This document shows, one piece after another, positions 12,523 to 55,642 of a DNA stretch of 64,000 bases (positions within the stretch are counted from its first letter, which is position 1; each line of letters opens with the position of its first letter). The position numbers and the translations under genes are program-made. Below the pieces are notes generated by a model, which was given only the letters and a program-made list of their open reading frames with translations, was not told the DNA's origin and searched no databases. The stretch covers positions 62,001-126,000 of the forward strand of contig NZ_BSTC01000010.1 of assembly GCF_030269305.1 (NCBI RefSeq), written 5' to 3'. The DNA comes from Kineosporia sp. NBRC 101731. GTDB taxonomy: Bacteria > Actinomycetota > Actinomycetes > Actinomycetales > Kineosporiaceae.

Positions 12523-12538
12523 CCTACAGATGAGTTTT

Positions 12539-12569
12539 CGCCCGCGGCCGCACGGGCCGCGGGCGTTTT
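12539..12569 (+). terminator. Hairpin with U-tract between fabG and inhA
   Basis: A perfect 11-bp stem, CGCCCGCGGCC at 12539-12549 and GGCCGCGGGCG at 12555-12565, with a 5-base loop and TTTT at 12566-12569. It lies in the 72-base gap between fabG and inhA, where co-transcription is normally expected. It probably gives partial termination or 3'-end stabilisation. Confidence 0.75.
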
Positions 12570-12594
12570 CTGCGAAGTGAAAGGGACTGCACGA

Positions 12595-52620: not shown

Positions 52621-53988
52621 CTACGCCGGGCCGCGGGCCTTCTCGACGTAGGGCCGGATCGCCTCCGGCACCAGGTCGTCGGCGCCCCAGCCGGCCAGCA
52701 CCTCGGCCAGGGTGGGCGCCTGCTGGATCCGGGTGTCCTCGGCCATGAGCAGCAGGGCCGCCGGAACCGGGGCGTCGCGTTCCAGCACCGAGCGCAGGCA
52801 GGCTCTCACCTCGTCCTCACTGCCGGTGCACTCGAACGGCTTGGTGCCGTGCAGCCCGGCCATCCGCTCGTAGAGCCCGGACAGCGAACGGTCTTCGAGC
52901 AGGTCCCCGCCGAGTTTGGCGACCGCCAGGTCGTGCCCGAACAACACCGAGGTGGCGAGGAAGACCCAGGCGCACTTGGCGCAGGCCCGGCACCAGCCCG
53001 TGCTCTTCGCCTGGTTACAGCTGGCGGTACGCAGGTAGGCATCGACGTCGTCGGTCAGCAGCGAGACGATCTGCAGTTCGAGCAGAGGACGCAGCGGGCT
53101 GGCGTAGGGGGGAGCCGCCGGCACCCAGCGGTGCCGGTAGTCGGCGAGGTTCGCCTCGAACTCGTACGTCTTCGTCCACTGATGATTGACGGGACGGCCG
53201 CGGTAGGCGCTGATGTTCGGCTCGTCGTCGCTGCGGGAGTTGCCGGCCAGCACCAGGCTGTTGCCGCGCAGGTAGCCGGCCAGCATCGCCGCGAACGCCA
53301 GGTAGGCCGAGTACGGCGTGTGGCCGTTGGGGTGGCCCTGGGCGTTGAGCCGCAGCAGGTCGGGCAGGATCCGGCGCTCGAGGGTGATCACGCGACCGGG
53401 CCGTAGCGTTCCGGTCAGCGCGAGCTGGCCGGGTGTGGGGTTGTAGAGGAAGACGTCGATCGGCATGGCGTGCCGGGTGGTGAGGGCCAGGGCGAGGGAG
53501 TCCTTGCCGCCGGAGAACATGACGAGGGCGGGGGCCGCGGGCGCCTCGACGGCCCGGGCGCGAGGGGCGGGGTCGTCCGGCCCGGTGGCCCGCAGCGTCA
53601 GGAAGTCTGGTGCGGTGAAGTCGATGTCGTTGCGGTAGAAGAACTCGCCCAGGGCCGGGGCCCAGAAATCGTTCCACCAGGTGAGTCGGCTGCCGCTGCC
53701 CGGAATGACGAGTTCCGGGCTGCAGAACGCCTTCCAGTAGGAGAAGGCCTCGACCACGGCGAGGGCCCGGAGGAGTTCGCGGGCCGGATCCTCGTTCGCC
53801 CGGGTCAGTTCGTGCGCCTCCAGACCGCTGAGCGTGATCGAGGGCTCGAAGGTGTGCTGTCCTACCGTGAACCGGAATCGGACGACGAGTCGCCCGTCGT
53901 CGATGACGCAGACCGGTTCGGCCACCGTGAAGGTGGGGTGTGCGGTGCGTAGGGACCGCAGGAGGCTGGGGTCCACCGGGGTGCTCAC
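52621..53988 (-). CDS. murL: MurL-like PP-loop protein (putative UDP-MurNAc-L-Ala-L-Glu epimerase family)
   Basis: 455 residues from the GTG at 53988; the GTG at 54012 overlaps the upstream stop (GTGA) and is a good alternative (463 residues). A PP-loop, MFSGGKDSLALAL, lies near residue 155. Downstream come NGHTPYSAYLAFAAMLAGYL, NSRSDDEPN and NHQWTKTYEFEANLADY, and a Cys cluster CNQAKSTGWCRACAKCAWVF. This order fits MurL, an ATP-dependent epimerase found in Xanthomonas that converts the terminal L-Glu of UDP-MurNAc-L-Ala-L-Glu to D-Glu. No MurD2 partner is adjacent; instead it is coupled to an AAA ATPase/nuclease. Another amide or epimerase role is possible. Confidence 0.68.
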   Translation of the reverse strand: MSTPVDPSLLRSLRTAHPTFTVAEPVCVIDDGRLVVRFRFTVGQHTFEPSITLSGLEAHELTRANEDPARELLRALAVVEAFSYWKAFCSPELVIPGSGSRLTWWNDFWAPALGEFFYRNDIDFTAPDFLTLRATGPDDPAPRARAVEAPAAPALVMFSGGKDSLALALTTRHAMPIDVFLYNPTPGQLALTGTLRPGRVITLERRILPDLLRLNAQGHPNGHTPYSAYLAFAAMLAGYLRGNSLVLAGNSRSDDEPNISAYRGRPVNHQWTKTYEFEANLADYRHRWVPAAPPYASPLRPLLELQIVSLLTDDVDAYLRTASCNQAKSTGWCRACAKCAWVFLATSVLFGHDLAVAKLGGDLLEDRSLSGLYERMAGLHGTKPFECTGSEDEVRACLRSVLERDAPVPAALLLMAEDTRIQQAPTLAEVLAGWGADDLVPEAIRPYVEKARGPA

Positions 53989-54008: not shown

Positions 54009-55478
54009 TCACGAGTACAGTCGCTCGAGATCGATGAGAAGAACCTGGTCGTCCGTGGTGGCGACGGCCCTGAGTTCTTCGGTGAACCCGGCGCCACCGT
54101 ACAGGGCGAGCACGGTGTTCTCGGTGTGGTAGCTCTTGTTCTGCAGCAGGTCCCGCGCTCTTCTCAGACGCCTGAGGTGATCGAGCCCGATCACCTCTCC
54201 CCATTTCACCTCACCCAGGGAGACGACCTGCCGGGGGCCGTTCGACTGCTGGGCCGAGAACGCGACCACATCGATCTCGATCTGTGTCCGGTTCGCCGGG
54301 TCGTTGATGATGCCGGAACCGACCTCGGAGGGTTGCTCGCCGAAGAGATCGGCGCCTGCGTCCAGCGCGAACGACCGGCACAGGGACTCCAGGTGAGGGC
54401 CCACGACCTGGGTGAGAAAGGTCTGCCGGGTCGTGGCCCAGACCTGTTCCGCCCGGTGGATCTCCAGTTCGGCCCAGCGTTTGCGCATGATCGCCTCGTA
54501 GAACGTGATCAGCGGTTCCACGATCCGGTAGTGGGACCGGCCGGGCCGGAACAGGTCCGGCTCCCGGGCGATCAGGGCGCAGTCCTCGAGAACATTGAGA
54601 GGGTGGGAGATCTGGTCGGACCGGCGCCCGATGAAATTCGCGATTCCCCCGTTCGTGGTGTTCCCGGCGGCGATCGCCGCCAGCACCGAGTGGTACAGCG
54701 CGGGGTCACGGATGGCGGACTCCTCGGCCAGCAGGTACCGCGCCTCCCGGAACAGGGGCGTCTGCGGGTTCAGCGCAGTGCGTACCACCCACGGGTCGAA
54801 GTCCTCGATGCTCGAAGGAGCATCTCCCCGGGTGAATTCATAGCGGTAGGCGGGGGTACCGCCGACAACCGCGTGCACCAGCACCGCGAGCCGGGGATCG
54901 GTGATGCCCCAGAACCGGGCTGCTTTGCGATACTGGAACGGCTGAACCACGAGCTCGAGACTGGCCCGCCCGCGCAGTGGCGCCTGACCGGCCAGCAGAT
55001 TTCCCATGACCGACATCGCCGACCCGCACAGCACCAGACGGACCGGGCTCGTGCGGCCGCTGCCCCCGGGGCCGAGCTCACGTTGAATGATGGACGGCAG
55101 CGCCGGTGATGTCTTGGACAGGAAAGGGAATTCGTCGATGGCGATGAAGGCCGGCCGGTCCCACGAACTGCGGAACAGGTGTGCGATCGCCTCGTTCCAG
55201 TCCCGCGGGGGCGCGCCGATGAACTCTCCGGTGTGGCGGGAGAGCGTCTCGGCGAAGAGGCGGAGCGATTCGGTCTCGGTGGCCTCGGTGGCGGCGAAAT
55301 ACATGCCCCCGGCCGTCTCGGCCATGGCCTGGAGCAGGAAGCTCTTTCCCTGCCGGCGCCGGCCACTGACGATTCCCAGTGCGGCGCCGCCCTGGGTCGC
55401 CTCCGGGGGAGTGCCGGCGAAGGCGGCCAGGCCGTCCCACTCGCGGGACCGACCGAAGATGCGTGAGGGTTTTTCCAC
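54009..55478 (-). CDS. AAA ATPase with C-terminal DUF234-type PD-(D/E)xK domain
   Basis: 489 residues from the GTG at 55478 (GGGAG eight bases upstream). Residues about 5-230 form an archaeal-type ATPase (ATPase_2): IFGRSREWDGLAAFAG, Walker A SGRRRQGKSFLL, Walker B AFIAIDEFPFL, sensor VLCGSAMS. A winged-helix part follows (GNTTNGGIANFIGRRSDQISHPLNVLEDCALI). The C-terminal DUF234 region shows IEIDVVA ... GEVKW, the D...ExK pattern of restriction-like nucleases. The role of these proteins is unknown; selfish-element or defence functions are guesses. A 31-bp double palindrome lies 30 bases upstream. The stop overlaps a possible start of the MurL-like gene. Confidence 0.87.
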   Translation of the reverse strand: MEKPSRIFGRSREWDGLAAFAGTPPEATQGGAALGIVSGRRRQGKSFLLQAMAETAGGMYFAATEATETESLRLFAETLSRHTGEFIGAPPRDWNEAIAHLFRSSWDRPAFIAIDEFPFLSKTSPALPSIIQRELGPGGSGRTSPVRLVLCGSAMSVMGNLLAGQAPLRGRASLELVVQPFQYRKAARFWGITDPRLAVLVHAVVGGTPAYRYEFTRGDAPSSIEDFDPWVVRTALNPQTPLFREARYLLAEESAIRDPALYHSVLAAIAAGNTTNGGIANFIGRRSDQISHPLNVLEDCALIAREPDLFRPGRSHYRIVEPLITFYEAIMRKRWAELEIHRAEQVWATTRQTFLTQVVGPHLESLCRSFALDAGADLFGEQPSEVGSGIINDPANRTQIEIDVVAFSAQQSNGPRQVVSLGEVKWGEVIGLDHLRRLRRARDLLQNKSYHTENTVLALYGGAGFTEELRAVATTDDQVLLIDLERLYS

Positions 55479-55507
55479 GGTGCGATCTCCCGGGGAGGTT
55501 CGGGTCA

Positions 55508-55538
55508 CAGAAGTGTACTTCACGGAAGTATACTTCTG
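55508..55538. promoter_or_regulatory. Tandem GAAGTNTACTTC palindromes upstream of the AAA ATPase gene
   Basis: GAAGTGTACTTC (55510-55521) and GAAGTATACTTC (55525-55536) are spaced 15 bases centre to centre; together they form a 31-bp dyad with one mismatch (55508-55538). They are strikingly AT-rich for this genome and lie 30 bases upstream of the GTG. A likely operator. Confidence 0.75.
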
Positions 55539-55600
55539 TCATGCCGGACACTCTGCGAACTGGTCCCTGGAAGCGGGGCGGGACGGCGTCCTCCAGCAGG

Positions 55601-55642
55601 CAAAACAAAGGTGCGGCCCGGGAGCGAACCCGGACCGCACCT
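55601..55642 (-). terminator. Intrinsic terminator of the MFS gene
   Basis: A 14-base stem with one mismatch (55609-55622 with 55629-55642). On the minus strand it is followed by CTTTGTTTTG. It lies 14 bases after the MFS stop. Confidence 0.8.

Follow-up and report, generated by a model that had tools for sequence, protein, structure and literature searches.

The locus and the encoded protein

The window, that is, the whole 64,000-nt stretch analyzed from Kineosporia sp. NBRC 101731, carries at 54009-55478 on the minus strand a gene for a 489-aa protein with a GTG start at 55478, and two 12-bp dyads are located 31 bp upstream of this start. The features of the gene and of its upstream region are:

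54009..55478, minus strand: ATPase / winged-helix / PD-(D/E)xK gene, with GTG start at 55478 and a longer frame to 55523 that overlaps the site
54204..54212, minus strand: E423-x-K425 of the nuclease core (GEVKW), with partners D403 and E364 likewise conserved
54504..54707, minus strand: winged-helix stretch, residues 258-325, from weak MarR_2 and ArsR/AdcR-type matches
55131..55136, minus strand: Walker B acidic pair D115-E116, from alignments
55341..55364, minus strand: Walker A GRRRQGKS, residues 39-46, from alignments
55487..55491, minus strand: ribosome-binding-site-like GGGAG, by direct reading
55507..55539, minus strand: 33-bp composite site and proposed self-operator, composed of ACA, a 12-bp dyad, 3 bp, a 12-bp dyad and TGT
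55510..55521, no strand: proximal 12-bp near-palindrome GAAGTGTACTTC, with one mismatched pair
55512..55517, minus strand: -10-like TACACT within the proximal dyad, by consensus reading
55525..55536, no strand: distal 12-bp palindrome GAAGTATACTTC, perfect
55609..55642, minus strand: terminator-like hairpin that follows the upstream MFS gene and lies close to the boundary of the accessory stretch

A longer frame of the gene (54009..55523, minus strand, 504 aa) begins at a far-upstream GTG and overlaps the dyad region. Because the homologue matches begin at the equivalent of 55478, the GTG at this position is the likely start, while that at 55523, inside the dyad region, is an unlikely one. By direct reading, GGGAG sits 8 nt 5′ of the 55478 GTG.

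The gene is accessory in the genus, with a homologue in four of six genomes. At the window's locus itself, it was present in two of the six genomes and missing in four, and in the two that have it there it lies alone between the terminator of the MFS gene and a PP-loop gene. The latter (52621-53988, minus strand) encodes a PP-loop (SGGKDS) protein of about 455 aa and starts about 20 bp past the ATPase stop. An operon system formed with this neighbor was considered and rejected, as the PP-loop gene occurs without the ATPase in two genus genomes and, within about 3 kb on each side of the homologues, was found only in the nearest relative, L036.

The original prediction read the protein as a P-loop ATPase with a winged helix and a PD-(D/E)xK nuclease-like core, and the alignments agreed with it. 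Walker A and Walker B as well as E364, D403, and E423-x-K425 showed little or no variation in two alignments, of 11 and of 10 sequences, the Walker B, which reads IDEF, being conserved like Walker A and the E..D..ExK residues. The winged-helix matches were weak (MarR_2, E = 0.13; PDB ArsR, E = 0.035; PDB AdcR, E = 0.099). The ATPase part matched the PDB profiles 2qen (E = 3.5e-8) and 2fna (E = 0.011), the latter being presumably SSO1545, so that this part resembles the SSO1545 / ATPase_2 archaeal ATPases; the 2qen and 2fna chains are shorter (357 and 350 aa), and the best-matching stretches fall in the ATPase part only. Pfam matches to both ATPase_2 and DUF234, the families by which the protein had been named, do exist, but at 16.6 bits (curated cut-off 33.2) and 16.3 bits (curated cut-off 22.5), respectively. 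Since both scores fall below the cut-offs, that name holds, on these profiles, as a distant assignment only. No family was found for the protein in NCBIfam and PHROGs at E ≤ 0.01.

The PADLOC profiles of PDC-S27 were matched by the protein, PDLC04984 with E = 3.5e-19 (residues 29-367) and PDLC04985 with E = 2.6e-11, in a library that gives no curated cut-off for PDC-S27 matches. As judged from these matches, the 489-aa protein is a distant PDC-S27 relative from a divergent actinobacterial branch. PDC-S27 is described, in the available part of the source, as a PADLOC phage defense candidate, an abundant single gene with ATPase and PD-(D/E)xK domains, which is especially abundant in archaea among the single-gene candidates, with validation pending for most PDCs (PMC12988326). 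The window protein thus resembles PDC-S27 both in its sequence match and in the two kinds of domains, but differs by its branch. The same available part of that source mentions no upstream sites (PMC12988326).

A double dyad confined to the locus

Two near-identical 12-bp palindromes had been predicted about 30 bases upstream of the gene, and they were found 31 bp from the 55478 start, with 3 bp between them and 15 bp from center to center. Together with their flanks, the two dyads make up a 33-bp imperfect dyad (55507-55539). In the whole assembly (8.26 Mb, 88 contigs, 99% complete), exact GAAGTNTACTTC occurred only at 55510 and 55525, and with one mismatch allowed it had 35 matches on both strands, vs. 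24 for the reversed control pattern. Further, among 296 phylum genomes, only the window's own contained the composite GAAnTATAnTTC-3-GAAnTATAnTTC with at most one mismatch. The palindrome is thus scattered neither in its own assembly nor in the 296 phylum genomes, as the genome search suggested by the original prediction could have revealed. A chance origin of the pair was also considered and rejected, as the exact 12-mer is confined to two places and shuffles fall short. The dyad pair is neither a chance product nor a scattered host motif, because the exact 12-mer and the composite are unique to the site.

The core of the proximal dyad reads TAnnnT in 11 of 12 close members, the window included. 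A sigma-70 consensus scan called no promoter at the dyad site.

Retention of the site in close homologues

Scanning of the genome contigs collection, which reaches close relatives only, yielded 12 relatives that are 46-90% identical to the 489-aa protein, from Kineosporia, Actinoplanes-type genera, Nonomuraea, Hamadaea, Longispora, and Herbidospora. L035, the locus from Herbidospora (46%), is an N-terminally truncated fragment and was left out of the site test. All 11 homologues with an N-terminus (70-90% identical), the ones in which the upstream regions could be compared, retained the pair of 12-bp dyads with its 3-bp spacer, at a distance of 17 to 42 bp upstream of the start. When the 12 members, the window included, were compared at the best place with GAAnTATAnTTC-3-GAAnTATAnTTC, which has 20 fixed positions, six had no mismatch, three had 1, one had 3, and two had 4. 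The mean majority per column was 0.869 in the site, vs. 0.439 in the 60-nt left flank and 0.565 in the 14-nt right flank. The window's four neighbor genes were found beside the homologue only in L036; in 11 of the 12 close loci, none of them was found within about 3 kb on each side, one of these regions ending at a contig end. Because the dyads are kept while the flanks have diverged and the neighbor genes were found at one locus only, the dyad site is, to judge from this comparison, selected together with the gene.

A 15-bp spacing with changing sequences across the family

More distant relatives, at 35-54% identity, had the same architecture with different sequences; the array of L044 reads TAACTACACTTC-TAA-GAAGTGTAGTTA and that of L048 reads GATCTGTAGTTC-AGT-GATCTATGGTTC. 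To quantify the spacing, 90 stretches were gathered from the window, the species genomes, the own genome, the phylum sample, and plasmids, of which 80 were anchored by a motif rule and 47 members were kept below 60% identity. Ten stretches without an anchor were dropped: besides relics and truncated genes, they included at least one whole gene (L102) that the narrow rule overlooked. The anchors of L036, L076, and L079 look misplaced. The plasmid loci of this first set were 14 hand-picked among the matches listed (40 of 136 records). Out of 51 places, 30 were taken as loci and 20 regions were fetched, and L103, among the 20, repeats L071. The 47-member set spans bacteria and archaea, including haloarchaea, rhizobia, Deinococcus, and a clostridium.

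In the 47 members, the direct-repeat score at period 15 was 9.19, vs. 6.65 ± 0.17 in shuffles and 6.4-7.0 at the remaining periods of the 10-25 range; 15 was the best period in 26.7 of the 47 members, with ties shared. A combined symmetry score, with direct, inverted, and palindromic components, reached 22.53 at 15 bp, vs. 17.03 ± 0.28 in shuffles, about 20 SD, and on average did not exceed 18.4 at the remaining periods of the 12-30 range. A 15-bp pair was found with p ≤ 0.05 in 30 and with p ≤ 0.01 in 21 of the 47 members, compared with 0-5 of 47 at the other periods from 12 to 30.

As the 15-bp period was first noticed in this set of 47, a later set was scored with the period fixed beforehand. 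It consisted of 18 loci, 14 hand-picked to span identities among the matches listed (60 of 148 records) and four new intact paralogues from 16 places. The combined score of these 18 loci at 15 bp was 24.94, vs. 17.32 ± 0.47 in shuffles, with p ≤ 0.012 in 14 of the 18. A score of at least 22 was reached by 26 of the 47 first-set members and by six of the eight non-redundant later members, 10 of the 18 later loci having been set aside for this count as redundant at 60%. As background, the same threshold was reached by 10 of the 48 window genes that had been roughly called and by 153 of the 1412 windows from the same loci. These results indicated that the support for a gene-linked site exceeds what was originally proposed, as many distant homologues appear to hold the 15-bp spacing with other sequences.

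Inspected by eye, L049, L054, L113, and L117 appeared to have at least three units spaced by 15 bp, and L080, L072, and L067 appeared to have a 16-bp step, with three or four units in L080 and L072. A viral scan yielded three distant relatives, which were left out of the counts.

Controls and exceptions

No significant 15-bp pair was found in 17 of the 47 first-set members and in four of the 18 later ones. Another spacing or a misplaced anchor may account for some of these and true absence for others; by eye, L116, L115, L066, and L090 appear to be truly without a site. A 16-bp class suggested by eye (L065, L067, L069, L071, L072, and L080) was rejected, as period 16 was not significant over the family (17.34 vs. 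17.00 ± 0.28).

Same-locus control windows at 15 bp gave a direct-repeat score of 7.31 (vs. about 6.7) and a combined score of 18.34 (vs. 17.03 in shuffles). This slight rise is expected because of codons, and codon periodicity was rejected as the source of the family signal, since these windows were raised at multiples of 3 including 15, yet far below the family values. Likewise, a general property of upstream regions was rejected, as only the above-mentioned 10 of 48 roughly called window genes reached a score of 22. The top background score (29), obtained upstream of 12594, belongs by direct reading to a long, G+C-rich, terminator-like hairpin between two genes (window 12530-12590).

As a control family, PDC-S01 was used, another single-gene candidate with ATPase and PD-(D/E)xK domains according to the available part of the source (PMC12988326). 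From this family 27 of 30 loci were used, of which 24 were non-redundant. PDC-S01 differs from the present family in that the 15-bp period is absent: its score at 15 bp was 7.29 vs. 7.19 ± 0.20 (n = 24), that is, no signal. At 22 bp the score was 7.88 vs. 7.18 ± 0.20, a mere hint of a signal, because periods 11 and 27 were somewhat raised too. Upstream repeats 22 bp apart were seen at the PDC-S01 genes L135, L136, L141, L142, L145 (own genome), and L150, that of L135 being TTACTCAATATGTTGAGT...TACTCAACATATTGAGTAA. This likeness of some members suggests that the idea of a self-operator may extend to PDC-S01 with another step.

Site similarity and the domains of the protein

To relate the sites to the domains, 49 members with a clear site were compared (1035 of 1176 pairs usable, 300 permutations). 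The raw correlation of site similarity with domain identity was 0.276 for the ATPase, 0.389 for the winged helix, and 0.426 for the nuclease domain, and the partial correlations were -0.004, 0.196, and 0.266, respectively, with p = 0.003 for the last two. The ATPase segment of residues 110-177, with a raw correlation of 0.372, runs counter to a clean domain reading. These values suggest that site similarity follows the two C-terminal domains, winged helix and nuclease, better than the ATPase, and that the DNA-reading domain may be either of the two, the nuclease domain correlating at least as well; they are suggestive only, because they are drawn from related sequences.

The own genome carries three open family members, the window's gene, L040, and L042, with three different arrays. 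A common host regulator for the family sites appears unlikely, because the members differ in sequence and the window's sequence lacks a second genomic target. As far as these genome comparisons reach, the encoded protein is the one factor seen traveling with the site.

A proposed self-operator and its alternatives

Taken together, the double dyad is probably a cis-encoded operator that would be bound by the gene's own product, with autorepression of an ATP-switched nuclease as the consequence. In the proposed mechanism, the winged helix, probably with the help of the nuclease-fold domain, would occupy the pair of 12-bp dyads, spaced by 15 bp, as two dimers. These dimers would cover the -10 region of the promoter, which is predicted to lie in the array, and so keep expression low. 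The ATPase part would then serve as the switch by which the complex, silent while bound to the operator, becomes an active nuclease upon a trigger, perhaps phage infection, and expression would rise as the protein leaves the site. Accordingly worded, the part of the original prediction that saw gene and site as a linked, self-regulating unit is well supported by the dyads kept in homologues, by the unscattered palindrome, and by the 15-bp spacing in distant members.

An operator of such dimensions usually belongs to a small dimeric regulator, which speaks for an operator of another, host-encoded regulator that controls the gene. We regard this alternative as improbable. Such a regulator would have a single target, as the exact 12-mer occurs at only two places in the assembly, both in this site, and the close homologues hold the site though the neighbor genes were found only at L036, 11 of the 12 loci being without them. 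Moreover, with three different arrays at the three members of the own genome, each would need its own dedicated regulator.

That the repeat works in RNA, as a leader hairpin, an attenuator, or a terminator, is considered very unlikely. The 33-bp outer dyad could form a stem, and in L044 and L033 the inverted repeats are long and without mismatch across both 12-mers. However, in several other members the units were more similar to each other in direct than in inverted orientation (identities out of 12: L048, 10 vs. 8; L085, 11 vs. 7; L111, 9 vs. 6; L117, 10 vs. 8). Should the -10-like core be genuine, transcription in the close set would leave out most of the array, and a fixed 15-bp period with changing sequence suits protein dimers on DNA better than a stem.

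We give equally little credence to the site as a recognition or cleavage site of the nuclease, whether for self-targeting, for homing, or for a selfish unit that inserts at the site or protects it. The catalytic E, D, and ExK residues are conserved, and the gene, present at the locus in two of six genus genomes and missing in four, comes or goes as a unit, both of which would fit such a role. However, the chromosomes and plasmids of the examined members bear their sites uncut, the same site stands before the gene at other locations, and the viral collection contained no exact match to the composite site (S form). Further, 55510 and 55525 are the sole positions of the exact 12-mer in the assembly, and the opposite end of the accessory stretch lacks a copy. 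For the self-targeting part of the original prediction, in the sense of cleavage at the site, and for its selfish-element part, no positive evidence was obtained.

Least credible of all are iteron-like or ORB-like sites for replication or partition, as for Orc1/Cdc6 or Rep proteins: an AAA-type ATPase with a winged helix resembles Orc1/Cdc6, and some archaeal and clostridial plasmid members adjoin orc1/cdc6, ParA, or ParM genes, but the neighbors of the window's copy are genes of transport and metabolism, genomes of the genus can do without the gene, and a nuclease core is present.

If the self-operator is extended to the family, PDC-S27 proteins might be operator-gated nucleases, in which one protein is its own repressor, ATP switch, and nuclease; this generalization is put forward tentatively, as a conjecture that may well fail. 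The operator would act as a sensor, and every lineage would have evolved a private DNA code, determined by the winged-helix and nuclease domains and made up of at least two dyads with a constant 15-bp step. The nuclease would be kept inactive on its own site until a signal of infection, such as competing DNA or a loss of nucleotide balance, frees it and increases its expression, and sibling families like PDC-S01 would use another step (22 bp).

Defense role, precedents, and relatives

The pattern at the locus would fit a mobile single-gene defense cargo. A possible role in defense is suggested only by the match to the candidate family PDC-S27, the patchy presence in the genus, and broken relics.

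Two such broken relics of the family lie in the own genome, at G000:C1:397605-398229 and G000:C3:435859-436786 (L038/L041 and L039/L043). Both have frame changes, the second an internal stop too, and they were read as a sign of rapid turnover.

In C proteins of restriction systems, RptR, and toxin-antitoxin operators, tandem dyads lie over the promoter of the system that is controlled. In these autoregulated defense and toxin-antitoxin operators a separate regulator binds, whereas here the ATPase-nuclease itself is the candidate binder. A precedent for promoter action by a protein of related build is IniR of mycobacteria, a STAND-type regulator in which, according to the available part of the source, an SSO1545-like ATPase is fused to a DNA-binding domain in one protein and acts on a promoter (PMC5760070). 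IniR differs from the window protein in that it targets iniBAC and has, besides a MalT-like domain, a DNA-binding domain that is SdiA-like, and no nuclease domain is described for it in that part (PMC5760070).

In the literature searched, no title or opening of an abstract dealt with upstream sites for this family. Within that scope, the gene class is an already known candidate, and the member-specific operator appears to be new. A member-specific DNA target built into PDC-S27-type genes would provide a concrete handle on what such proteins bind, and a gel shift on the protein's own 33 bp is a ready assay, self-regulation being predicted. Provided that the rule applies to the whole family, a DNA recognition code could be learned from thousands of natural pairs of protein and site.

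Among the plasmid-borne members, the haloarchaeal PDC-S27 gene of Natronococcus occultus plasmid 2 (L108) lies between two orc1/cdc6 genes and has a near-perfect array, AAATCTGGATTTCCGAAATCTAGATTT, and other plasmid members adjoin ParA or ParM genes.
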